Positions 15,856-40,804 of a DNA stretch of 64,000 bases are shown here, piece by piece. The position numbers were made by a program, and so were the translations under genes. The notes beneath the pieces were generated by a model. The model was not told the origin of the DNA and searched no databases. It worked only from the letters and a program-made list of their open reading frames with translations. The first letter of the stretch is position 1. The number at the start of each line of letters is the position of its first letter. This DNA is from Acidisarcina polymorpha (GTDB lineage Bacteria; Acidobacteriota; Terriglobia; Terriglobales; Acidobacteriaceae). The stretch is from assembly GCF_003330725.1 (NCBI RefSeq), contig NZ_CP030840.1:496001-560000 (forward strand). Direction: 5' to 3'.

Positions 15856-15884
15856 CCAATCCCCAAACCAGAAAGGCCAGTGCC

Positions 15885-16718: not shown

Positions 16719-16720
16719 CC

Positions 16721-18051: not shown

Positions 18052-18077
18052 ATGTCCTTGTGAGAGAGGAAGACCGC

Positions 18078-18308
18078 ATGACCACACTCACGATTACAAG
18101 ACGCAACAGGCTCATTGTCTCAATCAGTGCATCCATGCTGGCTCTCACTTTTCTCCTCTCGCCTGTCGGACGTAGCTCTGTAGCCAGCACGCTCGATTGG
18201 TTTATCCAAACCGCTGAAGCCGTGACGGAGTTTCCATGCAAGATCGTGACCGACATCCGTCACTTTTCCCTGGATAGGTTAGACCCAACCTGCCCGCAAT
18301 GCTTCTAG
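18078..18308 (+). CDS. Small membrane-anchored protein in transfer operon
   Basis: A 76-residue protein with one N-terminal hydrophobic helix (LIVSISASMLALTFLLSPVG) and a short soluble tail with three cysteines (EFPCKIV, PTCPQCF at the C-terminus). No family is recognised. It sits between virB10 and virB5/trbJ on the same strand, and GAGG lies nine bases before ATG 18078. The terminal CPQC pair could be redox-active or bind metal, but this is a guess. Confidence 0.55.
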   Translation: MTTLTITRRNRLIVSISASMLALTFLLSPVGRSSVASTLDWFIQTAEAVTEFPCKIVTDIRHFSLDRLDPTCPQCF

Positions 18309-18331
18309 CTTTTTCACCCAAAGGAGGCTGT

Positions 18332-19117
18332 ATGAAACTCGTGATGACCAAACGCAACAAGTATCTTCTAACCGGCGGTCTGCTCCTGTTGACCGCGACA
18401 CCTAGCTTCGCTCTCTTCGGGATCGGCGACATCGTCTTCGACCCGACCAGCTACGCCAGTCTTGTCTCGCAGCTCACGACCCTGGAGTCGCAGTACAAGA
18501 TGCTCCAGAACAACATCACACACTTCTCACTCAAGCAGCAGTGGCAGACGACCTTGAATGCCATGAAGAACGCCAACGTCGCGAATATGTTTGGTGAGAC
18601 GAGCGGGATGAGCATCGCGCTCAATACGAACTCGCCCAGCGCGTCGTCCACGGCCTGGACTGCCGGGACGATCAAGGTAAGCGGGAACACAACCACATAC
18701 CTGCAAGGGCAGATGCCGGGGAGCTCCCAGCTCTCGCAGCTCGCCATGATCGAGGCATCGGACTCCATCTCTCCCGATTGCCTTACCGCAGTCGGCCAGT
18801 ACAGGGGCGCGAGGACGCAGAACGTCACCGCAAACACCACGCTCGCCTCGCAGCAGGTCGACGGCAGCGATGGCACCAATACCGAAGTCGAACAGCTCAA
18901 TCTCCTGAATGCAGCGGAAGCCCAGAAGATGTCCGAGATGCAATCGCAGGGCGTCTTGCAGGCTTGCCTCGCTTCACAGATGACCGTCACGAATATGGAG
19001 CGCAGGAACGCTGGGGCACAGGACCTCAACACCGCCGCCTTTGTTCAGCAGCAACGCTCGACCAATAACGTGAGTGCGGCGAATGAAAGCAACACCTGGC
19101 AGACCTATCTTCCCTAA
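18332..19117 (+). CDS. virB5: TrbJ/VirB5-type pilus component
   Basis: A 261-residue secreted protein: signal peptide YLLTGGLLLLTATPSFALFG, then GDIVFDPTSYASLVSQLTTLESQYKML, the classical opening of TrbJ/VirB5 minor pilins, and long helices with Gln-rich stretches. It probably sits at the pilus tip and helps contact recipients. AAAGGAGG four bases before ATG 18332 fixes the start. The protein ends in TWQTYLP, which closely resembles the end of the next gene product. Confidence 0.82.
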   Translation: MKLVMTKRNKYLLTGGLLLLTATPSFALFGIGDIVFDPTSYASLVSQLTTLESQYKMLQNNITHFSLKQQWQTTLNAMKNANVANMFGETSGMSIALNTNSPSASSTAWTAGTIKVSGNTTTYLQGQMPGSSQLSQLAMIEASDSISPDCLTAVGQYRGARTQNVTANTTLASQQVDGSDGTNTEVEQLNLLNAAEAQKMSEMQSQGVLQACLASQMTVTNMERRNAGAQDLNTAAFVQQQRSTNNVSAANESNTWQTYLP

Positions 19118-19129
19118 TTCGGAGACGCG

Positions 19130-19378
19130 ATGCTGAAAGCGATCAACACCAAGACACTCATCGCAATTCTTGCGGCGCTGACCGCCATCGGCAGCGCCGT
19201 GATTTACCAGAGTCACGAGGCTCACAAGGCCGCCGCCATTCTTCAACAGCAACAGCACGATGCCGAGGAGCGCAACAAGGAAGATGAAGCGTTTCGCAAA
19301 AAGGTAGAGCAGGACAAGAAGCGGCACAACTCTGCCGCTGGTAACGAAGGCAAGACCTGGAAGGGCTATATCCCCTGA
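19130..19378 (+). CDS. Small membrane protein, TrbK-position
   Basis: An 82-residue protein with one N-terminal hydrophobic helix (LIAILAALTAIGSAVIY) and a highly charged, coiled-coil-like remainder rich in Lys, Glu and Gln. It lies between trbJ and trbL, where IncP-type clusters carry the entry-exclusion lipoprotein TrbK, but it has no lipobox cysteine, so the exclusion role is only a positional inference. It ends TWKGYIP, nearly the same tail as the TrbJ protein just upstream. Confidence 0.6.
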   Translation: MLKAINTKTLIAILAALTAIGSAVIYQSHEAHKAAAILQQQQHDAEERNKEDEAFRKKVEQDKKRHNSAAGNEGKTWKGYIP

Positions 19379-19395
19379 TTTCACCGGAGACCGAT

Positions 19396-20313
19396 ATGAG
19401 CATCGCCGTTCTCGCACAAGCACTGCCGTCCGCATCGTCGGGCATGGACTGGCTCTACCAGTTCACCAACAACTTGACCAACCTCACCACGCAGAATGGC
19501 GGCGCGTTGACCCAGTTCGGTTGGACGGAGCTGAGTTGCATCTCTCTCTTCACCCTTGTGAACATGGTCATCAACTGGAACACCAGCACGATGACGTTCC
19601 GGCTCCATCACCATCCCGTGCGTGCGGGCGACCTTACCCACTTTCTGCTCAAGCTCATCGTGTGCAGCTTGCTGCTGAACTATTGGGTGAATCCGTTCCC
19701 AGGTGCCAGCTTCGGCATCAATCACTTCTTTAGCTACATCGCGCAGGCGATGGTCGCAGCCTTCGATCAGCACTCGCTTGACCAGCTCCTGCAACTTCTG
19801 AAGACGGCTGGCGATGGAACGTCAATGCCGTCCTTAACCGCACCCGTTCAGATCCTCTGCTATGTCCTCGTACAGATCATGCTCGGACTCGCTTCCGCCA
19901 TCTTGTTCGTCATCAATTGCAGCGCCTTCATCCTCTACGGTGTGACCGCACTCTTTGGCCCTGTATTTGTGCCGTTGCTCATGACGCAGACCTTCAAGGC
20001 AAAGTTCTTCCACTTCCTTGACGTGATCATCAGCTTCGCTATGATTCGCGCTGTTGCAGCCGCCTTCATCTACGTGTGGGCCGGATTCATGAATGGGTTT
20101 CTGCAGCAGACCTTCAATGGCAACTATTCGATGGATATGTGGATCGCCAATCTAATCCCTTGCTTAATGGTCTTCGTCGCTTTCATCATTAATATGCTGT
20201 TCATTCCGAGCATGACCCAAGCGATCTTCGGAGGTGCTGCTGGAATGGCAGGGTCGGGCACCGGAGTCGTCGGTAATGCACTGAGAGTTTTCGTAATGAT
20301 GGGAGGGGCATAA
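19396..20313 (+). CDS. virB6: TrbL/VirB6-type polytopic membrane protein
   Basis: A 305-residue inner-membrane protein with at least six hydrophobic helices, among them LKLIVCSLLLNYWVNPFP, CYVLVQIMLGLASAILFVINCSAFILYGVTALFGPVFVPLLM and MVFVAFIINMLFIPSM. The Gly-rich LFGPVFVPLLM block is shared with TrbL/VirB6 proteins, which form the inner-membrane pore of the secretion channel. ATG 19396 follows a GGAGA; it lies 17 bases after the previous gene, in a tight operon. Confidence 0.82.
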   Translation: MSIAVLAQALPSASSGMDWLYQFTNNLTNLTTQNGGALTQFGWTELSCISLFTLVNMVINWNTSTMTFRLHHHPVRAGDLTHFLLKLIVCSLLLNYWVNPFPGASFGINHFFSYIAQAMVAAFDQHSLDQLLQLLKTAGDGTSMPSLTAPVQILCYVLVQIMLGLASAILFVINCSAFILYGVTALFGPVFVPLLMTQTFKAKFFHFLDVIISFAMIRAVAAAFIYVWAGFMNGFLQQTFNGNYSMDMWIANLIPCLMVFVAFIINMLFIPSMTQAIFGGAAGMAGSGTGVVGNALRVFVMMGGA

Positions 20314-20315
20314 AC

Positions 20316-20513
20316 ATGAGTGACTTGTGGAATGGTTATGGATTTGGTGGCGCGTTCGGAGCATCACGCTTTGGGCGACGAGTAATCAAGCCGGTGCTTA
20401 AGCTCTTTGTCCTTGGAGTCGTCATCGCTGGGCTGATCTATACCTATGTTGTTTTGAACGCAGTTCGCGAAAGGAGCCAAGCCCGTCATGTCCACACACA
20501 CAGCACACATTGA
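20316..20513 (+). CDS. Small single-pass membrane protein
   Basis: A 65-residue protein with one central hydrophobic helix (LFVLGVVIAGLIYTYVVL), a Gly/Phe-rich N-terminus and a His-rich tail (HVHTHSTH). The gene starts at the stop of virB6 and overlaps the virB8 start by 26 bases, so it belongs to the transfer operon and is probably made as a coupled product. No family is recognised. Confidence 0.6.
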   Translation: MSDLWNGYGFGGAFGASRFGRRVIKPVLKLFVLGVVIAGLIYTYVVLNAVRERSQARHVHTHSTH

Positions 20514-21294
20514 AAGCGCGCTGACGCCGGAGCAAGCACTCCTCACCGATCACATCGGAAATGAGGTCTATGCCTCCCACTATGCCGAGCGCAAAGCCTA
20601 CCGTCTCGTCATTGGTTGCGGAACAGTAGTGCTACTTGGTTCGATGTGGCTTAACTTCTCACTCGCCCATCGCCCAACTGCGAATCGCTACATCCGCATC
20701 GATGAGATGGGCCGCGCCCAGGCAATCCAATACAGCGACCTCAACTACAGCCCCCGCGAAGGCGAAGTACGGACATACCTCACTGATTGGGCCAACTATC
20801 GCTACACCATTGGGCGGGACACCATCGCGAAGAAGTATCCGCTCAACTACTACTTTCTGTCGCAGACGCTCGCCTCGCAATTGATGACCGCAGACAACGC
20901 GAATCATCTTGTCTCACAGGTGGTGGCCGGGCAGATCGAGACAAGCGATGTGCAGGTGAAGAACGTCACCATCACGTCGATGTCAGATGAGACTGTTCAG
21001 GGTACCCGAATCGCGCGTGGAACGGCTCTTGTATCCATCGACAGGTTCTACTCTGCCCAGAACTCCCGCGAGCCCCGCACCGAGCATTGGATGCTGAGTA
21101 TTACCTACTATCTGAATCCCAAACAGGTTAGTGACCAGGCCCGCATCTTCCCGCAGTTCGAGACGATCAATCCGCTTGGATTGACCATCACGGAATTCCA
21201 CGAGAACCGGCTCTCCGTCGATCCCATCGCGCCAGGAACCAATGCAACGTTGCCGGCGTTACCGGCGATGCCAGCAACAGGAGCGACGCGATGA
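20488..21294 (+). CDS. virB8: VirB8/TrbF-type inner-membrane assembly protein
   Basis: A 268-residue bitopic protein: a cytosolic N-terminus, one transmembrane helix (LVIGCGTVVLLGSMWLNFSLA) and a periplasmic NTF2-like domain (VRTYLTDWANYRYTIGRDTIAKKYPLNYYFLSQTLASQLM ... TEHWMLSITYYLNP ... INPLGLTITEFHENR). The PLGLTITEF phrase is typical of TrbF/VirB8, which nucleates the channel. It overlaps the start of virB11 by four bases (ATGA), a translational-coupling signal. Confidence 0.88.
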   Translation: MSTHTAHIESALTPEQALLTDHIGNEVYASHYAERKAYRLVIGCGTVVLLGSMWLNFSLAHRPTANRYIRIDEMGRAQAIQYSDLNYSPREGEVRTYLTDWANYRYTIGRDTIAKKYPLNYYFLSQTLASQLMTADNANHLVSQVVAGQIETSDVQVKNVTITSMSDETVQGTRIARGTALVSIDRFYSAQNSREPRTEHWMLSITYYLNPKQVSDQARIFPQFETINPLGLTITEFHENRLSVDPIAPGTNATLPALPAMPATGATR

Positions 21295-22259
21295 GCTACC
21301 ACCTGATCCTCCCGTTCTTCCCCGAGGAGTTGCGTGCGCTTTTACTCGACCCTTCCATCTCGGACCTCATGGTAAATGGCACCACGGGCGTCTATGCGGA
21401 TCGGAACGGGGTCATCGAGCATATCCCCTTGGCGACGCCGTATTCGAATGACCGGCTACAGGCTGCAATTGAGCGGGTCGCTCGCATCCTTGGGCAAGAC
21501 CTCACGACGCAGAATCCGATCCTGAATACACGCTTGCCGGACGGCTCGCGTGTGGCGGTTGTGGGTGCTCCATCCTCTATCAATGGGCCGACACTTACCA
21601 TCCGCAAATTCAATCGCTGGTATACCTCCGATGAGTTGATTGCCGCAGGCAGCTTGCCGGAGTCCGTTCGGGACGAAGTCATCAACTTCATCAGCGAGAG
21701 AAAGAATGGCATTATCAGCGGCGGAACCAGTTCGGGGAAGACGACCCTAATGAAGGCGCTGCTTGACCATGTTCCGCAGCATGAACGTCTGGTGGTCATC
21801 GAGCAGCCCGCCGAGTTGAAAGTGAACCATCCGAATGCCGTCCGCTGGGAGGCCGTCGAGGCGATTCCTGGTCAGGTCGGCATTACTCCGAGCCAGCTCT
21901 TGGCCGCCGCTCTCCGCCATCGTCCCGACCGCATCATCATGGGCGAGATACGCGACGAGTGCGGTTACGACCTGCTGCAGGCAATGAATACAGGGCATGG
22001 TGGGACGCTTTCAACCATCCATGCAAAGTCCGCATGGGACGCCCTGAATCGTCTATCTGATTTGGCCCTTAGTGCCAAGGCGAATCTCAACCACGCATTC
22101 ATACGCTCGGAGACAGCGGAGGCCATCGACTTCGTTCTGTACTGCGAGCGCGATGCCACGGGCCGCCGCCGGGTGCGCGAGCTGATTACCGTCAACGGAT
22201 ACACCCACGCAGACCAGAGCTTCCAGACGGAGGACATCTATCGTGCTTCCGCCGCCTGA
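21291..22259 (+). CDS. virB11: VirB11/TrbB-type hexameric ATPase
   Basis: A 322-residue traffic ATPase. Walker A is GGTSSGKTT at about residue 143; the Asp box (LVVIEQPAEL), the Walker B-like IIMGEIRDECGYDLLQAMNTGH and the His box (GGTLSTIHAKS) are all present, as in TrbB/VirB11. It forms a hexamer at the inner membrane and switches the channel between pilus assembly and DNA transport. It closes the mating-pair-formation operon. Confidence 0.93.
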   Translation: MSYHLILPFFPEELRALLLDPSISDLMVNGTTGVYADRNGVIEHIPLATPYSNDRLQAAIERVARILGQDLTTQNPILNTRLPDGSRVAVVGAPSSINGPTLTIRKFNRWYTSDELIAAGSLPESVRDEVINFISERKNGIISGGTSSGKTTLMKALLDHVPQHERLVVIEQPAELKVNHPNAVRWEAVEAIPGQVGITPSQLLAAALRHRPDRIIMGEIRDECGYDLLQAMNTGHGGTLSTIHAKSAWDALNRLSDLALSAKANLNHAFIRSETAEAIDFVLYCERDATGRRRVRELITVNGYTHADQSFQTEDIYRASAA

Positions 22260-22790
22260 GCATCAGGCATACAGCTAGAGAACCCAACCCGAATCGAGGT
22301 CACTCCGATGTACCGTCATGCTGCCAAATCGGCTGCACAGCCCAACTCGTCTCTAAAAGCGCCCAGCGTGGCGTTCCGGCATCGCCGAGAGCGGAACGGC
22401 GAGTGCTCTGAGCCGTTCTTCTATAGAGCCTTTGCCGCTCGAAACAGAGCTGCGGTTTGGGCGAAGATCAGCCGCCGAGATCGAGAGTTTGACTTCAGTG
22501 CATCGGGGAGCCTTCCGCCTCGTATCCCGTCCTCTGCTCGGGGTCACGCTTCGGGGCCAAACCGGCGCCCTGCGGCTCGGCGTCGTTCTGCTTCGACTAC
22601 GTCGCCCCTACGGGGTCTCGGTTCCTCCCAAAAGAAGTTTGCGAACCGCGGCAAAGAACACCGCGCAAACTTCTTTCGGGCCCCACCAAGAAAGCACTCC
22701 TTGGCGCTTGGGAGCCGGGCCCACTCGCTGGCTTTGCCAAGTGTGACCCGAGCAGGATACGGGAAATTCAACGAAACGGAGATCACCACC
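22260..22790. other. Non-coding leader upstream of ssb
   Basis: A 531-base stretch without a supported gene. An open frame runs through it into ssb, but its residues are Arg/Ser-rich and low in hydrophobic content, as expected from chance. It carries several G+C-rich self-complementary patches and one strong inverted repeat (see next entry). In conjugative elements such leading-region DNA can hold single-strand promoters or origins. Confidence 0.5.
22631..22676. repeat. Perfect 13-bp inverted repeat, large stem-loop
   Basis: Left arm 22631-22643 (AAAGAAGTTTGCG) is the exact reverse complement of 22664-22676, with a 20-base loop; CCC at 22627-22629 and GGG at 22678-22680 can extend the stem past one mismatch. 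It lies 114 bases before the ssb start. It could be a terminator for the VirB operon, a single-strand initiation site or a leading-region promoter hairpin. Confidence 0.8.
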
Positions 22791-23165
22791 ATGTACTCAA
22801 ACAAAGTCACCCTCATCGGATTCACCGGCGCTGATGCAGAAGTTCGCACCAACAACGACCGCAGCCTAACCACTCTCCCGCTGGCAACCAAGTCCTCCTA
22901 CAAGAAGGACGGCAAGTACATCGAGCACACCGAATGGCACCGTTGCGTGGTCTTCGGCAAGCTCGGAGAGTTTGCAGCCACGCTCAAGAAGGGCGCTCAT
23001 ATCCAAGTCGAGGGCGAGCTGCGCAGCCGGAAGTATGACAGCAAGAAGACGAACTCGGAGCAGACCATCTGGGAGATCCGGGTGAACTCGATTCTCAAGC
23101 TGGACCGTGCCGCCAAAGCGGCGGCGGAAGACGAGGATGAATCCACCGAGGAAGAGGCCGCATAG
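22791..23165 (+). CDS. ssb: Single-stranded DNA-binding protein
   Basis: A 124-residue OB-fold protein with the SSB signature: NKVTLIGFTGADAEVR, LPLATKSSYKKDGKYIEHTEWHRCVVFGKLGEFAATLKKGAHIQVEGELRSRKY, and TIWEIRVNSILKLD. It would coat the transferred strand during conjugation. It is shorter than chromosomal SSB (about 170), lacks the long Gly/Pro linker, and its acidic tail (EDEDESTEEEAA) lacks the usual DDDIPF tip, so it may not recruit host SSB partners. GGAG lies nine bases before ATG 22791; the upstream part of the open frame is not supported. Confidence 0.93.
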   Translation: MYSNKVTLIGFTGADAEVRTNNDRSLTTLPLATKSSYKKDGKYIEHTEWHRCVVFGKLGEFAATLKKGAHIQVEGELRSRKYDSKKTNSEQTIWEIRVNSILKLDRAAKAAAEDEDESTEEEAA

Positions 23166-23269
23166 GCCCTTCCTCCTTTCCGAAGAGTCCGGCATGCAGC
23201 CGGGCTTCTTCGGCTGCTAAAGGCCCGTGGCATCGCGCATGCAGTGCAGGTCGGATTGGAGGTATCGAG

Positions 23270-24214
23270 ATGAATGGAACAGCCCAGGACTTTCTTACCC
23301 GTTGCTTCGCTCTGGGCGACACGATCGCTCTCTTGCTTCGCAACGAGAGGATAGCAAAGACACAGCAACGCATAGTCCCTCTGGAACGTGCGCTCGCACC
23401 CCGTTACCGTGGCTGGCTCGCTCATGAAAACCACTATGGAACGAATATCTATGTCGCTGCCAATCCGCTGCTCTCCGGCAGCCGGAAACGCACCAAGGAT
23501 TGCATCGCTTCCATTCGCCACCTGTACATCGATATCGACGTGAATGGAGAGACCCGGCTCGCCGCGCTCCGCGCTTCCGAGCTTGTGCCGGAGCCGAATG
23601 TGATCGTCTCCACATCGGTAGGTAAGTACCAAGTGTTGTGGCGCGTGGAGGACTTCGACTTCTACACGCAGGAGATGACACTCAAGCTCCTCGCGATGGC
23701 CTTCCACGGCGACATCTCCTGCACGGACTGTAATCGGGTTCTTCGTATACCGGGATTTAAGAATTGCAAGTACGATCCCGCGCAGCTCGCCACCGTCGAG
23801 TACCTCTCCGATGCGACCTACCAGCCGGATGACTTTCATCTGTATGTCCTGCGCGAAGCCTGCATGATCCCACCTATCCCTCAACAGCCGATACGCCGCG
23901 ATATGCAGACCAACTCCGAGCATGATTGGGCTTGGGTTTCGCGTGAGCTTGCCCACGGCAAAGATGCCGTGAAGCTCACGCAGGAGCTGGCTTCGCGCCG
24001 TTCCGACAAGCCCAATCCCACCTACTACGCCCAGCGCACAGTTGATATGGCTTCGGCCCGTCTCTGGCTGATGGAAGGCACATCCATTGCGGACTTAATC
24101 GCCATGCTTGAGAGCCGCAGACAGCCTGAGATTCCCGCTGCACTTTGCTCCGCTCGTGCGCGGGAGATTGCGGCCACGGCGCAACGCATGATTGCACGCA
24201 ACAAGGTCGCCTGA
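23270..24214 (+). CDS. RepB-type primase domain protein
   Basis: A 314-residue protein. The central region has LYIDIDVNGE (Asp-x-Asp metal site), VIVSTSVGKYQVLWRVE, and CNRVLRIPGFKNCKYDP, the pattern of the RepB/DUF-type primase domain of plasmids and ICEs (archaeo-eukaryotic primase fold). It likely primes the complementary strand after transfer, or extrachromosomal replication of the excised element. The C-terminal 100 residues are helical and basic. It follows ssb by about 100 bases and is probably co-expressed. No origin repeats were noticed beside it. Confidence 0.8.
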   Translation: MNGTAQDFLTRCFALGDTIALLLRNERIAKTQQRIVPLERALAPRYRGWLAHENHYGTNIYVAANPLLSGSRKRTKDCIASIRHLYIDIDVNGETRLAALRASELVPEPNVIVSTSVGKYQVLWRVEDFDFYTQEMTLKLLAMAFHGDISCTDCNRVLRIPGFKNCKYDPAQLATVEYLSDATYQPDDFHLYVLREACMIPPIPQQPIRRDMQTNSEHDWAWVSRELAHGKDAVKLTQELASRRSDKPNPTYYAQRTVDMASARLWLMEGTSIADLIAMLESRRQPEIPAALCSARAREIAATAQRMIARNKVA

Positions 24215-24238
24215 ATTCATCACTAAAGGAGAACAGCA

Positions 24239-24565
24239 ATGCCACTACTCGAAGTCATCCAAACCCGTCAGGTCAGCGCCTCTATCCGGCTCACTGACTC
24301 AACCGCTACGCAGGTCGATCAGTACGCCGCCTTCATCCACGCATCAGCGGATGATGTCGTGGAACAGGCGCTTGCTTATGTGTTCCTGAAAGATCGCGAC
24401 TTCCAGGACTTTCTGAAGACGCCACAAGCGAAGCAGGCTTCTTCGACGCTTCGCATCCGCAGAGCGCCAGCTAATGATGCAGCGGAGCCGCCCGCAAAGA
24501 AGCCGGTATCCGCTGCGTCATCGCCAGCACAACCAGCAGCATTCGTGGCGGGATCGAAGGCATGA
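24239..24565 (+). CDS. Small accessory transfer protein, ribbon-helix-helix-like
   Basis: A 108-residue protein. Its N-terminal part (QTRQVSASIRLTDSTATQVDQYAAFIHASADDVVEQALAYVF) resembles a ribbon-helix-helix DNA-binding unit, and the C-terminal 45 residues are an Ala/Pro-rich disordered tail. AAAGGAG lies before ATG 24239. Placed 146 bases before the oriT-like repeat and the mobilisation genes, it could be a relaxosome accessory factor or a local repressor. No named family is recognised. Confidence 0.6.
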   Translation: MPLLEVIQTRQVSASIRLTDSTATQVDQYAAFIHASADDVVEQALAYVFLKDRDFQDFLKTPQAKQASSTLRIRRAPANDAAEPPAKKPVSAASSPAQPAAFVAGSKA

Positions 24566-24710
24566 TCCCGCTGCTAATGCAGTGGCAGAGCCACTACGGT
24601 GCTGCGCACCGGAAGAAGATTGACACTCCATCCCTTCCAGGGTGTCGCGAAATGAGCAATAGGGAGCCTATAGGCGACCTCTCTGCAAACAAGCAAGTTA
24701 CATAAATCTG

Positions 24711-24747
24711 GTTGCTTATAGGAGACCGCAAGGCTCCTATAAGCAAC
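24711..24747. repeat. oriT: Candidate oriT: perfect 14-bp inverted repeat with 9-nt loop
   Basis: The arm GTTGCTTATAGGAG (24711-24724) and its exact complement (24734-24747) flank the loop ACCGCAAGG. A further CCTATAGG element lies about 40 bases upstream (near 24667), so the CCTATA hexamer recurs three times. The site sits in the only sizeable gap (24566-24762) between accessory, MobC-like, coupling-protein and relaxase genes, where transfer origins are usually found. The nick position is not determined. Confidence 0.6.
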
Positions 24748-24762
24748 TTCGGAGTAGACGGC

Positions 24763-25155
24763 ATGGAAGCGGAAACCCAAGGTTCCCATCTCAATTTAGA
24801 GACGCGGATTCGCCGGTCCAAAGGCAGGACCGGTCGGACGATCAGTGCCACAGCCAAGGTCACGCGCGACGAGCAGAACGAGATGGAAGCGGCGGCTATG
24901 CAAAGAGGTCAGAGCCTCAGCGAGTGGTGCCGTGAGGTGCTTCTAGCAGCGGCCAGAGGCGAGACCATCACGCCGATCTTTACTGAGATCGTGGCTATCC
25001 GTCAGCTCCTCAACTCAACTTTGCGGAATGTGGCTTGCGGCGAGGTGATGACACCGCAGGCGTTCCAGACCGAGTTGCAAGGCATTCGTTCCAGCAAGCA
25101 CAAGGCCGCAGTTGAAGTCATGCAACAGTACGCCAGAACGGAGGTAGCACAATGA
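24763..25155 (+). CDS. MobC/TraJ-like relaxosome accessory protein
   Basis: A 130-residue protein with a basic N-terminus (TRIRRSKGRTGRTISATAKVTRDEQNEMEAAAMQRGQSLSEWCREVLLAAA), the ribbon-helix-helix fold seen in mobilisation accessory proteins that bind oriT and bend it for the relaxase. Its C-terminal half is helical. The start at 24763 lies 16 bases after the oriT-like inverted repeat, so it may also autoregulate. It overlaps the coupling-protein start by four bases (ATGA). Confidence 0.72.
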   Translation: MEAETQGSHLNLETRIRRSKGRTGRTISATAKVTRDEQNEMEAAAMQRGQSLSEWCREVLLAAARGETITPIFTEIVAIRQLLNSTLRNVACGEVMTPQAFQTELQGIRSSKHKAAVEVMQQYARTEVAQ

Positions 25156-27200
25156 ATAGCAATCAGCAGTGGGGTCGCAAAGAGACCATTGTTTGGCCGC
25201 CGCACGATCCCGTCTATACCTTCAGCGCGTTGGCGTTGGGTGTTTTCGCAACGCTGTTTTTCGTGTGGCAGTTTCTCCGCTTCACGGAGACGCCGTTGCG
25301 CCGGACATATACCCCGACCTATATACAGTCGCTCATCGGTGCGACGTTCAAGCAGCATGGCAAGTATCGACTGCTGTATGTCGGGGGCGGCAAAGCCGCT
25401 CCCCGACTGGCCCTGCCAGCCGACTTCGTTCCCGGCGAAACCAAGCTGCCCACCGGTGCTGTCTTTCCTGCTGAATTGTCCAAGGCGACACGGCAGCAGG
25501 GTTACACGGTTTTCTATCGAGGGCCGGAGAAGGACTACAACGACGCCGCGCTGAGCCGGTGGCTTCGCAGCGTGTATTTTGACGGGCAAGGGTTGCTCGA
25601 TATCTACGCAACCTCGTTAGGAGAAGGGCTTCTTGTCCTGGTGATCGCTCTCGTGTTCGCCGGACGCGCGGACGTGAAACGGTTCCGCGAGTTGAAGTAC
25701 GGACGCCACCTGAAGGGGCCGGTAATGGTTTCCCCGTCCAAGTTCAACAAGGCACTGAAGGCCGATGGCTTGGCCATTGAGACTTCTAAAAGGCCGTGGT
25801 ATCTCCGCAAGCCTATACAGCTCCGCATCCCCAAAAGCGCGGAAGCGAAGCACATTCAGATCATGGGCGACACCGGGACCGGCAAGTCCACACTGATAAA
25901 ACAGCTCCTCCAGCAGGTCGCCGACCGGGGTGAAATTGCCATCGTCTATGACCCGGCAGGCGAGTTCACGGAGAGCTTTTACAGGGAGAGCAGGAAGGAC
26001 CTGATTCTGAATCCGCTGGACTCACGGGCGCCTTATTGGACGCCATCGAGCGAACTGCGGAACCCCGCCGAGGCGCGGACTATCGCGGCTTCCATGTACC
26101 AGCCGCGCGAGGACAAGCGGGGCGAGTTCTTTACGGATACGCCGCAGAAGATCTTCGCCCATCTCCTGAAGTACAAGCCTTCACCCGAAGAATTGGTTGC
26201 GTGGATGTCGGACGAGGATGAGATCGATCGACGTTTGGAAGGCACCGAGCTTGCGAACTTCGCACTGAAGGATGCGCCCCAGCAGCGGAGTGGTGTACTT
26301 GGCTCGCTCGGCCTTGTGGCCGACAGCTTGCGTCTTCTGCCTACCCGCGAAGAAGCCCAGGGTCTGGAGTGGTGCGCGACGGAATGGGCCGAAAAGCGTG
26401 AGGGCTGGATCTTCCTCACATCCACGGAAGCCGAGCAGGAGGCGCTTCGTCCGTTGCATTCGCTCTGGATTGATCTGCTTGTGTTGCGTCTTCTGACCAA
26501 GCCGAAGCCGGGGCAGAAAAAGGTATGGCTGGTGATCGACGAGCTGGCCAGCCTCCAGCGTCTTCCGCAGTTCCATACGGCGCTGACCAAGGGCCGCAAG
26601 AGCGATAACCCTATCGTCTTTGGCTACCAGGGCAAGGCACAGCTTGAAACCATCTACGGTCATCTTGCCGAGGTGATGCTTTCGCAACCGACTACTAAAT
26701 TCATCCTCCGTACCGCCGAGCCGAACGCGGCCAAGTGGGCAGCGGAAATGATCGGCGAGGTCGAAATCGAGCGTGTGCGGGAGACGGTTGCGGACGGCAA
26801 GCGCCAGGGTAAGAGTTTCACCCTCGACAGGCAGATCGAGCCGCTGGTGATGAAGTCCGAGGTCGAAGGTCTACCCGACCTGCACACCTTTGTGAAGATC
26901 AACAACTACGTCTCACGCTTTTCATTCCCGCCCATGAGCCTCCCCAAGGTGGCAGAGGCACTAATCCCGCGCGTGATTCCTCCCCACAAGATGTGGTTCA
27001 ACCCTCTCGCGCCGGTACCCGTGGCCGGTCCACCTGCCACGCCATCGACCACCGAGGCTGCCAGCGACCGCGAAAATGCCGGATCAAGCAAAGGTGCTCC
27101 GATCAAAGAAGCCGAGGTACTCGTTCCGAAACTGGAGCTTCCCAAGGCCGTGGTTCCGTCGGCGCAAGCCCGAACTTCCTCCATCTCGCACAACCTGTAG
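25152..27200 (+). CDS. virD4: VirD4/TraD-type coupling ATPase (T4CP)
   Basis: A 682-residue coupling protein that links the relaxosome to the secretion channel. Two N-terminal hydrophobic segments (FSALALGVFATLFFVWQFL and LLVLVIALVFAG) precede a RecA-like motor: Walker A GDTGTGKST at about residue 239, IAIVYDPAGEF, a Walker B-like KKVWLVIDELASLQRL and VFGYQGKAQLETIYG. The type with LYTCP features (TrwB/TraD, DUF87-like) fits the MobF relaxase next to it. The C-terminus is Pro/Ala-rich and probably binds the relaxosome. Confidence 0.92.
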   Translation: MNSNQQWGRKETIVWPPHDPVYTFSALALGVFATLFFVWQFLRFTETPLRRTYTPTYIQSLIGATFKQHGKYRLLYVGGGKAAPRLALPADFVPGETKLPTGAVFPAELSKATRQQGYTVFYRGPEKDYNDAALSRWLRSVYFDGQGLLDIYATSLGEGLLVLVIALVFAGRADVKRFRELKYGRHLKGPVMVSPSKFNKALKADGLAIETSKRPWYLRKPIQLRIPKSAEAKHIQIMGDTGTGKSTLIKQLLQQVADRGEIAIVYDPAGEFTESFYRESRKDLILNPLDSRAPYWTPSSELRNPAEARTIAASMYQPREDKRGEFFTDTPQKIFAHLLKYKPSPEELVAWMSDEDEIDRRLEGTELANFALKDAPQQRSGVLGSLGLVADSLRLLPTREEAQGLEWCATEWAEKREGWIFLTSTEAEQEALRPLHSLWIDLLVLRLLTKPKPGQKKVWLVIDELASLQRLPQFHTALTKGRKSDNPIVFGYQGKAQLETIYGHLAEVMLSQPTTKFILRTAEPNAAKWAAEMIGEVEIERVRETVADGKRQGKSFTLDRQIEPLVMKSEVEGLPDLHTFVKINNYVSRFSFPPMSLPKVAEALIPRVIPPHKMWFNPLAPVPVAGPPATPSTTEAASDRENAGSSKGAPIKEAEVLVPKLELPKAVVPSAQARTSSISHNL

Positions 27201-27206
27201 GCTGCC

Positions 27207-30200
27207 ATGCTCACCATCTCGAAAGCCATTAGCTCCACCCAGGCGCAGACGTATCACAAGCTGGAGTACACCAGTGATGCGCAGAGCTATTACAAACAGG
27301 ACGAGACGGTAAAAGGAGAGTGGCAGGGCAAATTTGCCGCTTCCCTTGGCCTGTCTGGAGAGGTGGCACCGTTGGAGTTCTCCCGTCTGACCGAGGGTAT
27401 ACACCCGCAGACCGAGGCGCAGATGGTGCGGCACCGGGAAGGGCAGGAATACACAAACGCGGATGGTTCGGTGACCAAACCCGTCGAGCACCGGGCCGGA
27501 TGGGATGCCACTTTTTCCGCTCCCAAGTCTGTTTCACTCATTGCCCTCGTTGGCGGTGACGAGCGCGTGACAGAGGCACACCGAGCTGCCGTGACGACCG
27601 CCCTTGATGAGTTGGAGAAGTACACGCATGCGCGGATCGGCGGCAACAATCCCGCCGAGGTGACCGGGAAGTTCGTCGCTGCAAAGTTCGAACATGACAC
27701 GGCGAGGCCTGTGAACGGCTACGCCGCGCCGCAGCTCCATACCCACGCCATCATCTTTAATGTCACGGAACGCGAAGATGGTTCCACCCGTGCCATCCAG
27801 GAACGGACATTCTTCGAGTCGCAAAACTATGCGACCGCCGTGTACCAATCGGTGCTGACGCATCAGCTACGCAAGCTGGGCTATGAGATCGAGCCGGGAC
27901 AGAGCGGCGCACCCGAAATTCTGGGCTTCACACAGGCATACCTTGACGCCTCCAGCCCTCGTTCTCGGCAGATCAAAGAACAGATGGAGCGGACGGGTTT
28001 CCAGGGACCAGAGGCGGCGCAGATCGCCGCCCACGCGACCCGTGACCGGAAGCAAACCCTCACGGCGTCCGAAGTGTTGGCGGCGCACAAGGAGATGGCC
28101 AAAGACTTCGGTGACCAGCCGGAACGGGTGATCGCCGCTGCGCGCGAACGCGCCTTGATCCAGGCCCAGGAAATTAGCGTGCAGCCGGATTCCCGTGGGG
28201 CAGTTGCCTTCGCAAAGGAGAAAGTCTTCGAGCGCGAGGCTGTGGCCGATGAGCGGGTTATTATGCGCGAGGCCCTACGTCGTGGGATGGGTGAGGTCAG
28301 CTTTTCCGATGTGCAGAGTGAGTTCCAGCGGAGACAGGCGGAAGGCGAGTTCCGTTCCGTCCAAGGTCAAAAGTATGCTTCCGGTCGCAGCTTCACGACA
28401 CCGGAGACGATTGCGGACGAGCGCGCAAACGTGCAGCATGTCCTTAACGGACAGGGCGCATCGGCTCCAATGCTGTCCACAGCCGCCGCAGAGCGGCAGG
28501 CCACGTCCCGCGAGTTTCTGAACGAGGCGCAGCAAACGGCCATCCGCGAGGTGCTGACCAGTACCGACCGCGTACACGGATTCCAGGGATTAGCCGGAAC
28601 CGGGAAGACGAGCACGCTGGCCGCCATCCGTGAGGGTGCGGAGCAGGGCGGCTATAAGGTCGAAGGCTTCGCCCCGACCTCGAAAGCCGCAGGCCAGCTT
28701 CGCGAAGCAGGGATCGAGGCCAACACGCTTCAGAGCTTCCTTGCCCGGCAGAAGGACCCCGATTCCAGCAGACATCTCTATATGCTGGACGAATCCAGTC
28801 TCGCCAGCACCAAACAGATGCGGGCCTTTCTCGAAAAGATACACCCGCAGGATCGTGTTCTGGTCATCGGTGATACCCGCCAGCATCAGGGCGTCGATGC
28901 GGGCCGCCCCTTCCAGCAGATGCAGGAGGCGGGGATGCAAACCTCCAAGCTGGATACGATCATGCGGCAGAAAGACCCGGAGCTGCTACGTGCTGTCCAG
29001 TACCTCGCCACAAGCGAAACGGAGAAAGGTATAGCTCTGCTTTCCGAACAGGGCCGAGTCACCGAGCTTGCCAATGCGTCGGAGCGCATCGCCGCCATCG
29101 CCCAGGATTACGCCGCCAGGCCGGAGAACACACTTATCGTTTCGCCGGACAACCGTAGTCGCCAGCAGATCAATGAGGCCGTGCGCCGGGAGCTGCTGAA
29201 AGCTGGCACGCTGGCCGAGGACGGTCGGCAGTTCCTCACGCTATCCCATCGTTCCGATATGACCGGCCCCGACCGCACCTGGGCGGCGATGTACCGCCCC
29301 GGCGATGTCGTTCAGTACGAACGCGGCAGCAAAGCCGAGGGGATCGAGCGCGGCAGCTTCGGCGTGGTGCGATCGAGCGATGCGGCTACGAATCGTTTGA
29401 CCGTGGAGTTCTCCCATGGCTCCAGTGTCGAGTACGACCCCAAGCGGGTCTATGGCGTGAACGTCTATCGCGAGACCAGCCGGGAATTCGCCACCGGCGA
29501 CCGGCTCCAGTTCTCGGCTATTTATAAGGATCTGGGGATTTCGAACCGCGACATGGGAACTATTACTAGAATGGAGCCGGACCGACTCACCGTACTCATG
29601 GATGGGAAGGAACAGCGTTCTGTCAGCTTCAATCCCACTGAGTTTCGGCAGTTTGACCACGGCTACGCTGTCACATCCCACAGCTCTCAGGGACTAACCG
29701 CAGATCGCGTGATCGCCAATATCGATACCGAGTCCAGCCGCAGCCTCATCAACAACCGGCTCGCCTATGTCGCCATCTCTCGCGCCTCCGAAGACGCGAG
29801 GATTTATACGAACGACGCTGCAACGTTGGGCCAGCGGCTCGCTACCGATGTGACCAAGACTACGGCTCTGGACTTTACAGCCAAGCCCGAGCCGCCCGCA
29901 GCGCAGGAGGTTTCGAAGTCGCAGACCCTTGCGGTGCATGAGTACAGCAATCCGGATTCACGGCTCGCAGCCGTCGCTAGCGAGTACGCCAGCCGCCCGC
30001 AACATTCCGTCATCGTCGCGCCCGATCGCCGAGAGCGCGCCGAGCTGACACAGCTAATTCGGGCCGACCTCTACGCGCAAGGCAAACTCGGCCGCGACGC
30101 CCAGGCTGTAACAGTTCTCATCGAGAAAGAGACTGGGAGCAAGATGCGTGTTGAAAGCTACCAGCTCGGTGACAAAATCCAGTACAAGACCGGCAGCCCC

Positions 30201-30761
30201 GGCCTCGACGGTATCCCTCATGACAGCCAGGGCACGGTTGTTTCCACGACCTCGCGCGGCAATCTCCTCTCTGTTCGCTTCGACGCGACCCGCGAAGAAG
30301 TTACCTACGATCCCGCGCAGCTCCGAACTCAAACGCGCGAGAGCAGAGTCTTCCAGGAAGAGACTCGCGCAATCTCCCAGGGTGAGCGCGTACGCTTCGG
30401 CACCTACGATAAGGAGATGGGCGTGCGCTCCGGTGACCTCGGGACTGTCACCCGCATCGGCGAGGGCCACGCCATGACCGTGAAGATGGATTCCGGCAAG
30501 ATCGCCGAAGTTCCTCCTGAGAAGGCACAGCACATCGACTACGGTTACGTCGTCGATTCTTTGAAGAACGTTCACGCAGAACGTGTGATCGCAACTGGCG
30601 ATGGACTCACCCAACAGGCGTTCCAGGCAGCGTCCGCCAAAGCGGATCTCGCTCTATACACCAGCCCGCCGCAGCAAGAATTCGCTTCTTCCAAGGAAAT
30701 CGCAGTAACAGAATTCGCCCAGCCCACCAAGCAGCAGAATGATTTCGGAATCGGCTTCTAG
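27207..30761 (+). CDS. trwC: MobF (TrwC/TraI-like) relaxase-helicase
   Basis: An 1184-residue conjugative relaxase. The N-terminal TrwC domain begins MLTISKAISSTQAQTYHKLEYTSD with candidate catalytic tyrosines near residues 16-29 and carries the HUH metal motif in PQLHTHAIIFNVTER at about residue 178. The helicase part has Walker A GLAGTGKTS at about residue 460, MLDESSLAST, VIGDTRQHQGVDAG and the C-terminal TSHSSQGLTADRVI and INNRLAYVAISRASEDARIYT motifs of UvrD/RecD2-like helicases. A second RecD2-like stretch near the C-terminus (PQHSVIVAPDRRERAEL; YVVDSLKNVHAERVIATGD) looks like a degenerate helicase repeat. It nicks oriT and unwinds the strand for transfer. Confidence 0.93.
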   Translation: MLTISKAISSTQAQTYHKLEYTSDAQSYYKQDETVKGEWQGKFAASLGLSGEVAPLEFSRLTEGIHPQTEAQMVRHREGQEYTNADGSVTKPVEHRAGWDATFSAPKSVSLIALVGGDERVTEAHRAAVTTALDELEKYTHARIGGNNPAEVTGKFVAAKFEHDTARPVNGYAAPQLHTHAIIFNVTEREDGSTRAIQERTFFESQNYATAVYQSVLTHQLRKLGYEIEPGQSGAPEILGFTQAYLDASSPRSRQIKEQMERTGFQGPEAAQIAAHATRDRKQTLTASEVLAAHKEMAKDFGDQPERVIAAARERALIQAQEISVQPDSRGAVAFAKEKVFEREAVADERVIMREALRRGMGEVSFSDVQSEFQRRQAEGEFRSVQGQKYASGRSFTTPETIADERANVQHVLNGQGASAPMLSTAAAERQATSREFLNEAQQTAIREVLTSTDRVHGFQGLAGTGKTSTLAAIREGAEQGGYKVEGFAPTSKAAGQLREAGIEANTLQSFLARQKDPDSSRHLYMLDESSLASTKQMRAFLEKIHPQDRVLVIGDTRQHQGVDAGRPFQQMQEAGMQTSKLDTIMRQKDPELLRAVQYLATSETEKGIALLSEQGRVTELANASERIAAIAQDYAARPENTLIVSPDNRSRQQINEAVRRELLKAGTLAEDGRQFLTLSHRSDMTGPDRTWAAMYRPGDVVQYERGSKAEGIERGSFGVVRSSDAATNRLTVEFSHGSSVEYDPKRVYGVNVYRETSREFATGDRLQFSAIYKDLGISNRDMGTITRMEPDRLTVLMDGKEQRSVSFNPTEFRQFDHGYAVTSHSSQGLTADRVIANIDTESSRSLINNRLAYVAISRASEDARIYTNDAATLGQRLATDVTKTTALDFTAKPEPPAAQEVSKSQTLAVHEYSNPDSRLAAVASEYASRPQHSVIVAPDRRERAELTQLIRADLYAQGKLGRDAQAVTVLIEKETGSKMRVESYQLGDKIQYKTGSPGLDGIPHDSQGTVVSTTSRGNLLSVRFDATREEVTYDPAQLRTQTRESRVFQEETRAISQGERVRFGTYDKEMGVRSGDLGTVTRIGEGHAMTVKMDSGKIAEVPPEKAQHIDYGYVVDSLKNVHAERVIATGDGLTQQAFQAASAKADLALYTSPPQQEFASSKEIAVTEFAQPTKQQNDFGIGF

Positions 30762-37779: not shown

Positions 37780-38208
37780 ATGGAATTCGAAGGAAATCAC
37801 ACTGGCCCCCATTCGCTGGACGAAGCCGTCGAGCATTTGAAAGAAGCGGAGGTTCATCTGGAAATGGCGCGCGCGGAGGAGGCCAAGGCCGAACGTGACG
37901 TCAAGGAGGCAATTCACGAGATCGAGGAGGCGTCGCGGCACGACGAGGTCGAAGTGCATGTGGTCCAGGTGAATGAGTTGGAGAAGGCGACCTTCAAGGA
38001 GAAGGTCAAGACGACGCTTCAACAAGTGTGGGACATGTCCTATAAGGAACTGAGGCTTGAGCGCAAGCCGAAGGACGTCTTTCAGACGGCCGGGGCTCAG
38101 CCTCAGCCGTTGACCGGGCACCTGCAGCTCACGCTGGAGCAGGCACGAGAGCAGAAGGTCATTGGAAACTTCCACTTTGGGATCGCGTCTGAGACTGGCG
38201 GGGCTTGA
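37780..38208 (+). CDS. Ubiquitin-like modifier with C-terminal Gly-Gly-Ala
   Basis: A 142-residue protein. Residues 12-53 are an acidic coiled-coil helix; residues 56-142 can be read as a beta-grasp domain (VEVHVVQVNELEKATFKEKVKTTLQQVW ... YKELRLERKPKDVF ... GHLQLTLEQAREQKVIGNFHFGI) ending SETGGA. The Gly140-Gly141 pair followed by one Ala is what a JAMM peptidase would trim to expose a conjugatable diglycine. The stop overlaps the E2-like start (TGATG), and E2, JAMM and E1-like genes follow directly, which is the main evidence. The glycine codons also serve as a G-rich ribosome-binding site for the next gene, so the tail could be partly fortuitous. Function: protein modifier, inferred. Confidence 0.72.
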   Translation: MEFEGNHTGPHSLDEAVEHLKEAEVHLEMARAEEAKAERDVKEAIHEIEEASRHDEVEVHVVQVNELEKATFKEKVKTTLQQVWDMSYKELRLERKPKDVFQTAGAQPQPLTGHLQLTLEQAREQKVIGNFHFGIASETGGA

Positions 38209-38729
38209 TGGCGCAGATCGTGCCACCCCTACCAGTTGTGGACGTTGCGCGGGGGATCGCCTCACTCGATGCGGACATCCCCCGCGTCCTCGCCTTTTTA
38301 GGCAAATCGACGATCGAAGAGCTGGGCTGGCGAAGGCCCAACAAGAGCTCGCTCATTATCCCTTTACAGGGGACATTCAACGGCGTCACCGAGCAGTATC
38401 TGCTCCGTCTTGGCTTTTCTGCCTACCGGGGGTGGCCACCCAGCGCTCAGTTTGTGAACCCCGAAACACTGGCCTACACCCATCCCATGGATCAACATCA
38501 TCTGCCGATGCTCTCCAGTCCGGAATGCCATGTCCACCCGAGCTATGGCTCTGCGAATGGGAAAACGCTGCAACTTATCTGCTGTTCAGCAACGCAAGAG
38601 TTCTATGATGCCGCGCACCCAGTCGAATCCGACCTGATGTGGCGGGAGCAGAACACCTTCTACACCACGATCGCGGCGATTCAGAAGGCAATGGTCATGC
38701 ACTATGGAGGGCGGTTCGCGAAGGTATGA
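38208..38729 (+). CDS. E2-like ubiquitin-conjugating protein
   Basis: A 173-residue protein with a bacterial E2/UBC-like pattern: FNGVTEQYLLRLGFSAYRGWPPSAQFVNPET ... PECHVHPSYGSANGKTLQLICCSATQ ... EQNTFYTTIAAIQKAM. The His-Pro followed about 15 residues later by Ile-Cys matches the HPN...ICL block that carries the E2 active-site cysteine, here Cys125 (Cys126 adjacent). It would accept the Ubl from the E1 and pass it to a target. It begins at ATG 38208 inside the Ubl stop and ends inside the JAMM gene start (ATGA). The family call rests on this motif plus context. Confidence 0.72.
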   Translation: MAQIVPPLPVVDVARGIASLDADIPRVLAFLGKSTIEELGWRRPNKSSLIIPLQGTFNGVTEQYLLRLGFSAYRGWPPSAQFVNPETLAYTHPMDQHHLPMLSSPECHVHPSYGSANGKTLQLICCSATQEFYDAAHPVESDLMWREQNTFYTTIAAIQKAMVMHYGGRFAKV

Positions 38730-39259
38730 ACATGGAAGACGAATTGGAGCGTAGCGTCCCGCCGTTTCCCTACGAACCTGGAACCGCGCGACTGTTTTTG
38801 CCTCTAAAGGCGCTCGAGGCAACGCATCAGCTTCTCCAATCGGCTGGCCACCGAGAAAGCGGCGCGATGTGGTACGGCCCCAAAGACGCTGACGGCAACG
38901 GGACTGTTCGCTATGTTGGCGCGCCTCGACAGCAGATGCGCCGGAGAAACTATCACGTCAGCGCGGAGGCGTTGGCTGAGGTTGTTTATCGGCTGCCTGA
39001 GGACTACAAGCCTCTCGCCCAGGTACACAGTCATCCGGCAGAGTGGGTGGAACACTCCTCCTATGACGACACCATGGTGAGCAGCCAACGCATCCTTTCG
39101 CTGGTCTTCCCTTTCTACGGTCGAGAGATGAGCGAGTTTCCGCATGGCATTGGTGTGCACGAATGGCAGAACGGCTACTGGCACTGCCTTGATCTGGATT
39201 GTGCAACGCGGCGGATTTCACTGGTGGATGGTGAGGTTCGTGTGGAGGACATGCGGTGA
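38726..39259 (+). CDS. JAB/MPN (JAMM) metalloprotease, deubiquitinase-like
   Basis: A 177-residue JAMM protein. The zinc motif is complete: His101-x-His103-Pro-x6-Ser111-x2-Asp114 (VHSHPAEWVEHSSYDD), and Glu44 in HRESGAMW is in place for the catalytic glutamate. In ubiquitin-like operons such enzymes trim the Ubl precursor and remove it from targets; the extra Ala after Gly-Gly in the neighbouring Ubl fits a trimming role. It overlaps E2 upstream and the E1-like gene downstream by four bases each. Confidence 0.85.
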   Translation: MNMEDELERSVPPFPYEPGTARLFLPLKALEATHQLLQSAGHRESGAMWYGPKDADGNGTVRYVGAPRQQMRRRNYHVSAEALAEVVYRLPEDYKPLAQVHSHPAEWVEHSSYDDTMVSSQRILSLVFPFYGREMSEFPHGIGVHEWQNGYWHCLDLDCATRRISLVDGEVRVEDMR

Positions 39260-40804
39260 GGATCGATCCTGAAATCGGCAGCAGGCACCTGTTGGGCACA
39301 GATGGGTTGGCGGAACAGCCGAACGCTGTGCAGCAGTTCATCCGAATCATTCTTTCCGAGGACTGGGCGCACTCTGCCGCAGGGCAGATCATCGCGGAGT
39401 GCCTCGTCAACTTATTGGTGCGGCAGGTGGGTCTCGTCGAACAGCTTGAGGTCGTTGCAGCATCGGACGTGCCCCTGCTCATCCGTCCCATCCTCAAAGG
39501 CGACTGGCAAACGCTTTCGGATTACCTAGCGGCTGTGGGCGAGTGGGCGGTTGGAATGGAGGTACACGTCGGGCCTGATCCTTCGCCTCGCGCAGCAGAT
39601 CAAACAATCGTCATCGGCAGCGTAGCGACGCTGAACTCGAAAAAAGCGATCGCGTGCGTCGCGGATGGCTGGAGGGCGTGGTGCGGCGAACTGCAACACG
39701 TTCCCCACACTGGCCCTTCCCGTTCCCGCAACCCCATTGGACCTCTCTTCGCCGCAGCGTTGGTCGCGAGAGATCTTCAAGAGAACCTGGGGTCTTCGCC
39801 GCGGACGCCTCCTCGACAACCACGCATACTCTCTTTGGACAAATTCCATGAGTTCGGTGTGGGACGAGTTGGACGCCGCGCCATCATTGGACGGCCTCCG
39901 CTTACCGCCATTTGTTCTCGTCGGTGCTGGCGCAGTAGGTAACTCGTTGGCCTACGTACTGATGTGTCTCGAACATCCAGATGCATACCCGGTACTTGTG
40001 GACGACGACGTCTATGACACATCGAATTTGAATCGCTGCTGCCTTGCCAGCCATCGGGATTTAGAACAGGAAAAGACTGCTGTTCTCGCGTCCCGGTTGG
40101 CAGGCGCTGGTATCGCGAGCTTTCCGTTCAGCGGCGACCTGAAGCAGTTCGTGAATGACGCTCGAATTGGCCTACGCGCTGATGTGGCCGAGGAGTTCGG
40201 AGATGGACTCTATCGCATGGTCATCTCCTGTGTTGATCGGGGGGACGGCAGACAGGATATTCAGGGCCTACGCCCTCACTGGCTCGTGGGAGGCAGCACG
40301 CTTGATTTGCAGGCGAAGACCAATGTCTATGCCGGCGACGTCGATGCAGCATGCCTTGGGTGTCATAACCCTCGTGAAGTCAAAGGCGAGGCAATGCGTG
40401 TACTCGAGCGCCAGCTTCGCGCGATGAGCCAGCAGGAGCGCTTCAGCTTTCTCACAGAACACGGGCTCGACGCCACAAGCATTGAGGAGTACATCCAGGG
40501 CTCGCACTGTGGGCATCTTGGAAGGGCAGCTTTGTTGGATTTCGTGTGTACCCCGCCGCCACAATTTTCGGTAGGTTTCGTATCCTTGGGCTCCGGAGTT
40601 CTTTTGGCCGCAAGTATTTTCCGGCAACTGCTCTCGGGTATGGCGCTTCCTCAAAGAAGCGGGATGACAACCTTCAACTTTCTCAACGGGAATCTGGGAG
40701 AAAGCGCGTTGGCGCGCGACCCTCAGTGCCAGATCTGTTCAAACCTCACTGTGTCACCCGATCCCAGCCTTCAGACGGACACCGGGCTCACGCAGGTGGG
40801 TTGA
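39256..40804 (+). pseudogene. ThiF/E1-like activating enzyme, single-base frameshift
   Basis: Two frames join into one E1-like protein. Frame one (GTG 39256) gives an N-terminal domain ending NPIGPLFAAALVA; frame two picks up EIFKRTWGLRRGRLLDNHAYSLW and contains the ThiF core: FVLVGAGAVGNSLAYVL (nucleotide-binding loop), LVDDDVYDTSNLNRC (Asp and Asn-x-x-Arg), a CLGCH...CQIC zinc pair and SHCGHLGRAALLDF. One extra base near 39765-39775 explains the break. The protein should adenylate the Ubl C-terminus. All neighbours are intact and coupled, so a sequence error or a recent hit is plausible; starts inside frame two (39665, or 39848 at MSSVWDEL) could still yield the ThiF domain alone. Confidence 0.82.

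Follow-up and report, generated by a model that had tools for sequence, protein, structure and literature searches.

A probable Bil-like ubiquitin-conjugation operon on a conjugative-type island of Acidisarcina polymorpha, sequenced with its E1 gene in two reading frames

Introduction

Does the chromosome of Acidisarcina polymorpha encode a complete and working ubiquitin-like conjugation cascade? The question is raised by a compact group of genes at positions 37,780 to 40,804 of a 64,000-nucleotide stretch (the window; assembly GCF_003330725.1, contig NZ_CP030840.1, positions 496,001 to 560,000). The initial annotation read them as four overlapping genes for a ubiquitin-like protein (Ubl), an E2, a JAMM protease and an E1, and proposed that the E1 adenylates the Ubl and the E2 passes it on. 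We document here the parts of this locus, their order and fold types, their conserved active-site residues, a break in the E1 gene and the mobile context. Most probably, the locus is a Bil-like ubiquitin-conjugation operon, cargo of a conjugative-type island, in which the E1 is broken by a change of reading frame in this sequence.

Results

An operon whose fourth gene lies in two frames

The elements of the operon are the following.

37780..38208, + strand: Ubl (BilA-like), 142 residues; C-terminus ETGGA; helix at residues 11-53, beta-grasp domain at about 55-142
37810..37938, + strand: N-terminus of the Ubl (residues 11-53), a single acidic helix where two-domain BilA-like proteins have their first beta-grasp domain
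38194..38205, + strand: TGGA tail of the Ubl (residues 139-142), where processing and conjugation are predicted; identical in 5/5 aligned rows
38208..38729, + strand: E2-like protein (BilB-like), 173 residues, ATG start; Cys125 codon at 38580-38582
38726..39259, + strand: JAMM/JAB protease (BilC-like), 177 residues; E44, H101, H103, S111 and D114
39256..39768, + strand: N-terminal half of the E1 (BilD-like), inactive adenylation domain; out of register from there to a stop at 39942
39769..39769, + strand: E1 frame break, one base where relatives carry one codon
39770..40804, + strand: C-terminal half of the E1 (BilD-like), ThiF-type adenylation domain; the listed open reading frame (ORF) begins at 39665

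The Ubl stop and the E2 gene share one base, the E2 and JAMM genes overlap by four bases (ATGA), and the JAMM gene overlaps the next ORF, which has a GTG start at 39256, by four bases as well (GTGA). The overlaps and the first three genes of the initial annotation were recovered, and an intact E1 as fourth gene was not. The ORF that follows the JAMM gene (39256-39942) lacks the ThiF core and encodes only the N-terminal half of an E1, the core being found in a second ORF, 39665-40804, in a different frame. Both ORFs matched the PADLOC profile for BilD, the first over positions 37-181 of the profile (2e-11) and the second over positions 167-280 (5.1e-10). With the intact 497-residue E1 of Sinorhizobium fredii GR64 as tblastn query, residues 3-160 aligned to 39265-39768 in frame +1 and residues 162-487 to 39770-40738 in frame +2, which places the frame switch at 39769.

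Comparison with the intact E1 of the closest relative, which belongs to the same family (locus L004, genome G219), showed that the two halves are contiguous except for one residue, with no stop in either. In the four relatives described below, the E1 occupies a single frame (4/4). The break lies in a conserved stretch of the protein and, when the L004 E1 was aligned to BilD (8tyz), fell after the inactive and before the active adenylation domain. As written, the gene would yield a truncated inactive domain followed by 57 residues out of register, and translation of the active domain would require a start of its own. No second E1 of this type was found in the genome: among 17 candidates scored with the E1 alignment, only these two halves matched at E<=0.001. 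With its reading frame broken, the E1 should be inactive in this strain, barring an assembly error. The proposed cascade is thus not supported for the set as sequenced, its E1 being split across two frames.

The following motifs reported for these genes are present: the Gly-Gly-Ala tail of the Ubl (ETGGA, with TGGA in 5/5 operons), Cys125 of the E2, the HxHPx6SxxD site of the JAMM, and the ThiF-core motifs of the E1, which read GAGAVG and NLNR. The C-terminal half of the E1 also contains a catalytic-type Cys (codon 40508-40510) and CxxC pairs from 40352 and 40727, and matched ThiF at 1.1e-11 in a search with family hidden Markov models. The JAMM matched BilC in PADLOC at 4.1e-06 and Prok-JAB at 7.1e-05, under the Pfam cut-off. 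A scan for promoters and terminators gave fewer sites than shuffled sequences (0 versus 1.3 and 1 versus 3.4).

Relatives of the operon are rare and keep its gene order

Homologues of the E2 are rare. Beyond the window, they were found in genome G219 of the same family (loci L003 and L004), in genome G455 of the same class (L007 and L008), and on two rhizobial plasmids (L005 and L006), namely pSfreGR64b of S. fredii GR64 (NZ_CP137018) and a plasmid of Rhizobium sp. WYJ-E13 (NZ_CP076854). Ubl, E2, JAMM and E1 follow in the same order in all four. Since homologues share this order in four other replicons, the operon is more than a chance assortment of genes.

In genome searches with the E2, carriers numbered 1/1 in the genus, 2/300 in the family, 2/397 in the order, 2/399 in the class and 1/396 in the phylum, each count including the window's own genome. 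The genus of G219 gave 1/12 and the family of G455 1/39; the samples overlap one another. Among 72,556 plasmid records, two had the E2; the same two were returned with the JAMM and with the L005 E1, and one of them with the L008 E1. Nothing was found in a homologue scan of genome contigs with the E2 and the E1 C-terminal half as queries, the reach of which is limited to close relatives, in viral contigs searched with the E2 alignment, or in phage records searched with the L005 E1.

The G219 operon (L004) resembles that of the window in gene order and in the similar acidic N-terminus of its Ubl; identity was 55-63% for Ubl, E2 and JAMM, and 39% and 52% for the N- and C-terminal halves of the E1. 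It differs in its one-frame E1, and the genes upstream of the window operon were not found there. The S. fredii GR64 and Rhizobium sp. WYJ-E13 operons have the same four genes, with E2 proteins 50% and 49% identical to that of the window and a Ubl ending in TGGA, whereas their Ubl is longer, of the Multi_ubiq type and two-domain by its length, and their E1 is in one frame.

Across the five operons, active-site residues are conserved. The TGGA of the Ubl, Cys125, His110 and His137 of the E2, and E44, H101, H103, S111 and D114 of the JAMM are kept in 5/5, so that the annotated metal site is invariant; the E1 keeps GxGAVG and, in its catalytic region, a Cys. The neighbouring Cys126 of the E2 is a Phe in L008, which singles out Cys125.

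Fold of the Ubl and its variable N-terminus

The AlphaFold2 (AF2) model of the Ubl, built from three sequences, had a mean predicted local distance difference test score (pLDDT) of 73.6 and a predicted template modelling score (pTM) of 0.52. It consists of a helix at residues 11-53 followed by a beta-grasp domain. A fold other than beta-grasp, which would have spoken against a Ubl, was thus not predicted. Structure matches, mostly over residues 54-142, were USP-UBL, UFM1, SUMO and ISG15 domains and the Bil Ubl. The UBLs of USP15 and USP4 lead the list with Z of about 11; the Bil Ubl (8tyz_B) ranks 19th, with Z 9.7 and a root mean square deviation (rmsd) of 2.6 over 78 aligned residues. Residues 1-54 include 16 Asp or Glu and 6 Lys or Arg. 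The acidic N-terminus which the initial annotation placed where a second beta-grasp domain was expected is accordingly modelled as an acidic helix beside one beta-grasp domain.

This layout is one of several. The S. fredii Ubl aligned to Methylobacterium BilA over residues 7-195, and both rhizobial Ubls, which match Multi_ubiq, have the length to contain two domains. At 100 residues, the G455 Ubl could hold a single domain, and those of the window and G219 combine one domain with an acidic N-terminus, the structure model being that of the window Ubl. These differences indicate that the N-terminal part is the variable part in this lineage. Gong et al. 2025 reportedly found the N-terminal parts of bacterial Ubls to be diverse.

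E2, JAMM and E1 against solved structures

In profile searches, the closest solved structure was BilD (8tyz, 2e-17) for the E1 and BilC (8tyx, 3.5e-12) for the JAMM. For the E2, the first Foldseek match of the model was the Bil E2 (8tyz_C, prob 0.97, E 0.01). VIA-align 2 also placed a Bil E2 first (8tz0_C, Z 7.2, rmsd 4.1, 129 aligned), ahead of many ubiquitin E2 variant (UEV) and E2 chains at Z 5-6. This first rank, taken from a predicted model, is suggestive and not decisive. The Bil-type character of the parts, as annotated, is thereby sustained, with E1 and JAMM nearest to BilD and BilC by profile and the E2-like fold first matched to BilB. The agreement of Cys125 with known active sites was probed indirectly only: it is invariant in 5/5 operons, and its distance to the following Glu is that of BilB.

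The operon as cargo of a conjugative-type island

Upstream in the window, the following features were found.

9917-9991: tRNA-Phe
9944..9995, + strand: 52-bp direct repeat, left-hand copy, located at the 3' end of tRNA-Phe; the second copy is about 252 kb away, beyond the window
10063..11205, - strand: tyrosine integrase of the island (Phage_integrase, 3.9e-32)
13363..30761, + strand: conjugation module, with VirB4-like, CagX (VirB9-like), TrbI (VirB10-like) and VirB8 proteins, a VirB11-like ATPase, a coupling protein and a MobF/TrwC relaxase

A genome-wide pattern search found the two repeat copies to be perfect (C1:505944-505995 and 758096-758147). ARAGORN found no tRNA gene at the downstream copy, and a repeat search near the integrase, confined to the window, gave no att site. 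An integrative and conjugative element (ICE) is marked by an integrase beside a tRNA gene, by direct repeats at its two ends, by type IV secretion genes and by a relaxase, and all of these were observed. Because tRNA-Phe, integrase and conjugation genes precede the operon and the repeats bound about 252 kb, we regard it as cargo of a large island of the conjugative type that extends mostly outside the window. Among the plasmid matches listed for the relaxase (at most 5000 records), the top three were Granulicella tundricola plasmids, with 47-58% identity, which speaks for a host among the acidobacteria. The virB10/TrbI gene (16721-18051) is split between two frames near 17195, and to judge from the sequence the island may have lost self-transfer.

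Two reverse transcriptase ORFs were noticed. One (RVT_1, 30955-32514, - strand), probably of a group II intron, lies between the relaxase and the genes preceding the operon; the other, at 61859-63970, has 703 residues and resembles a reverse transcriptase by eye.

The genes before the operon encode an AAA ATPase (33120-35066, AAA_23), a HEAT-repeat histidine-kinase-like ATPase (35056-36171) and a response regulator whose C-terminal half is unassigned (36168-37040), followed by a 71-residue ORF and a DUF3892 protein. The genes at 33120-37040 form a tight overlapping set with PADLOC matches to Ppl, mad3, SduA and PDC-M60. These matches suggest that they may be a separate defence-like cassette. 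As for the extra small genes ahead of the operon that the initial annotation pointed out, they do exist (the 71-residue ORF and DUF3892), and their membership in a conserved unit was not supported: neither they nor the ATPase, kinase and regulator genes had a match in the 12-18 kb around the operon of the four relatives (tblastn, E 1e-3). On this ground they were rejected as members of the system.

In two of the four relatives, a divergent pair of helix-turn-helix (HTH) and M78 (ImmA/IrrE) peptidase genes stands upstream (L005, 3881-5124; L008, 4066-5496). Its layout matches that of the CapH+CapP controllers, which, according to an extract of PMC13373217, govern immune operons in response to DNA damage. 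We noticed no pair of this kind ahead of the window operon.

Discussion

The E1 break most likely stems from a mutation that inactivated the gene recently or from an assembly error. We lean, by a little, towards a real mutation, the odds given to each origin being a matter of judgement and not of computation. An assembly or sequencing error, with the operon intact and working in the living strain, has a substantial chance, somewhat short of even. There is one break only, in a short GA repeat, both halves are free of internal stops, the catalytic-type residues of the E1 are retained, and virB10/TrbI provides a second frame break in the same window. Against an error, the sampled chromosome appears fairly clean, with 2 frame-switch calls in 240 kb (16 stretches of 15 kb), an approximate count from a scan that missed the E1 break itself, and no single-base run exceeds four at the E1 or the virB10 site (70-100 bases inspected).

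Another reading concerns function. Instead of defending against phage, the operon could be a Ubl conjugation system that serves a general stress role, in the manner of the Bub operons, which are less understood. Both rhizobial Ubls match Multi_ubiq, and that of S. fredii matches 'multi-ubiquitin domain' proteins of the PDB (6.4e-34) more strongly than Methylobacterium BilA (7.9e-17); phage protection by Bub operons is, in an extract of PMC13373217, described as not demonstrated. However, BilD and BilC are the solved structures nearest to E1 and JAMM, and separate E1, E2 and JAMM genes fit Bil. We consider a stress role rather unlikely.

In eukaryotes, the E1 NAE1-UBA3 is a heterodimer. That the break is functional, through a two-part E1 of this sort or through programmed frameshifting giving low-level full-length E1, is highly improbable: it does lie between the two adenylation domains with both halves open, and PMC11354881 names UBA6 and NAE1-UBA3 as the nearest counterparts of BilD, whereas a conserved stretch is interrupted, the first ORF runs on into its out-of-register tail, there is no homopolymer slip site, AGA at the site, at 3.8 per 1000 codons, is uncommon without being very rare, inspection by eye showed no strong ribosome site ahead of the second half, and programmed frameshifting was rejected as unlikely on account of the single-frame E1 in 4/4 relatives. 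A two-piece Ubl-activating enzyme, with its adenylation domains in overlapping frames and joined as a heterodimer or by frameshift, would be a natural counterpart of the split E1 for NEDD8, and we give it very little credence.

Several results weigh against a Bil-like operon with a broken E1. In the assembled sequence a true break and an assembly error look alike, and at the penalty used the frame-switch scan left the break uncalled. The window Ubl and E2 had no PADLOC match at E<=1 and no Pfam or NCBIfam match above cut-off; the L003 E2 reached 0.036 at best against BilB in PADLOC, and the L005 JAMM had no PADLOC match. The five Ubl models differ in confidence, from 73.6 for the best to between 67.1 and 45.5 for the other four. 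The E2 model, from three rows, is weak (pLDDT 63.1, pTM 0.62), none of its Foldseek matches reached 0.001, its Z is below the caution line of 8 set for VIA-align 2, and neither the E2 profile nor single E2 sequences found a related PDB sequence. The L005 E1 alone found no PDB sequence at 0.01, and the Asn of the E1 NxxR motif is a Ser in L004. Finally, only position, TGGA and alignment identify the L008 Ubl, which had no tblastn or Pfam match.

In known Bil systems, the Ubl is attached to phage structural proteins. By analogy with this family, from which we infer catalytic steps, target and antiphage role, the intact relatives of the Bil-like operon should function like BilABCD. The JAMM would trim the final Ala of the Ubl and expose Gly-Gly, the E1 would adenylate the Ubl and load it on its catalytic Cys, and the E2 would receive it on Cys125 and transfer it to a target, from which the JAMM could also detach it. 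The scheme given for the family in an extract of PMC11354881 is the same: once matured by the JAMM, the Ubl is adenylated by the E1, which holds it on a Cys, and is conjugated by the E2. The acidic helix replacing the first beta-grasp domain might serve in recognition or oligomerisation and would accompany the tag.

The present locus adds Bil-like conjugation operons on a conjugative-type island, with a probable acidobacterial host, and a Ubl lineage in which a charged helix stands for the first beta-grasp domain, usable to probe the role of that domain. It also calls for caution: motifs alone can make a gene set pass as working even though a key gene is out of frame.

Our literature searches turned up no account of this operon. 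With Bub operons there was one weak match, of the S. fredii Ubl to Citrobacter BubA (0.071). In the Cap2/Cap3 systems of type II CBASS (cyclic oligonucleotide-based antiphage signalling system), E1 and E2 are fused in one protein; the E2 and E1 of the window are separate genes. Operon class 6d, in an extract of the 2006 survey of prokaryotic ubiquitin-like systems (PMC1779556), shares with the window an E2 with a conserved His after the Cys, and adds a gene for an alpha-helical protein and an extra N-terminal domain of the JAB; by eye, with no dedicated search, neither was seen at the window.

The closest system is BilABCD. It has Ubl, E2, JAMM and E1 in the same A-B-C-D order (though the E1 of the window is in two frames), a separate JAMM, whose BilC-type metal site (E, HxH, S, D) is present in the window JAMM, and an E1 with an N-terminal inactive and a C-terminal active adenylation domain and a Cys; it also provides the closest solved structures for E1, JAMM and E2 fold. 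The differences are in the other characters, besides the missing PADLOC matches of Ubl and E2. BilA has two consecutive ubiquitin-like domains, as in ISG15, and BilB has a CEHH motif, C138, E144, H146 and H151 (both from an extract of PMC11354881). In contrast, the window Ubl has one beta-grasp domain and an acidic helix, and its E2 has C125, E131, Y133 and H137: the Cys-to-Glu spacing is kept, the first His is replaced by Tyr and the last His is one residue nearer. Inactive domain, active domain and catalytic Cys, which a BilD-type E1 unites in a single chain, are all encoded, in different frames. As the two-domain Ubl, the CEHH motif and the single-chain E1 are lacking, the operon is not classifiable as a full member of BilABCD; it is a variant, in its Ubl and its E2, of the Bil-like kind.

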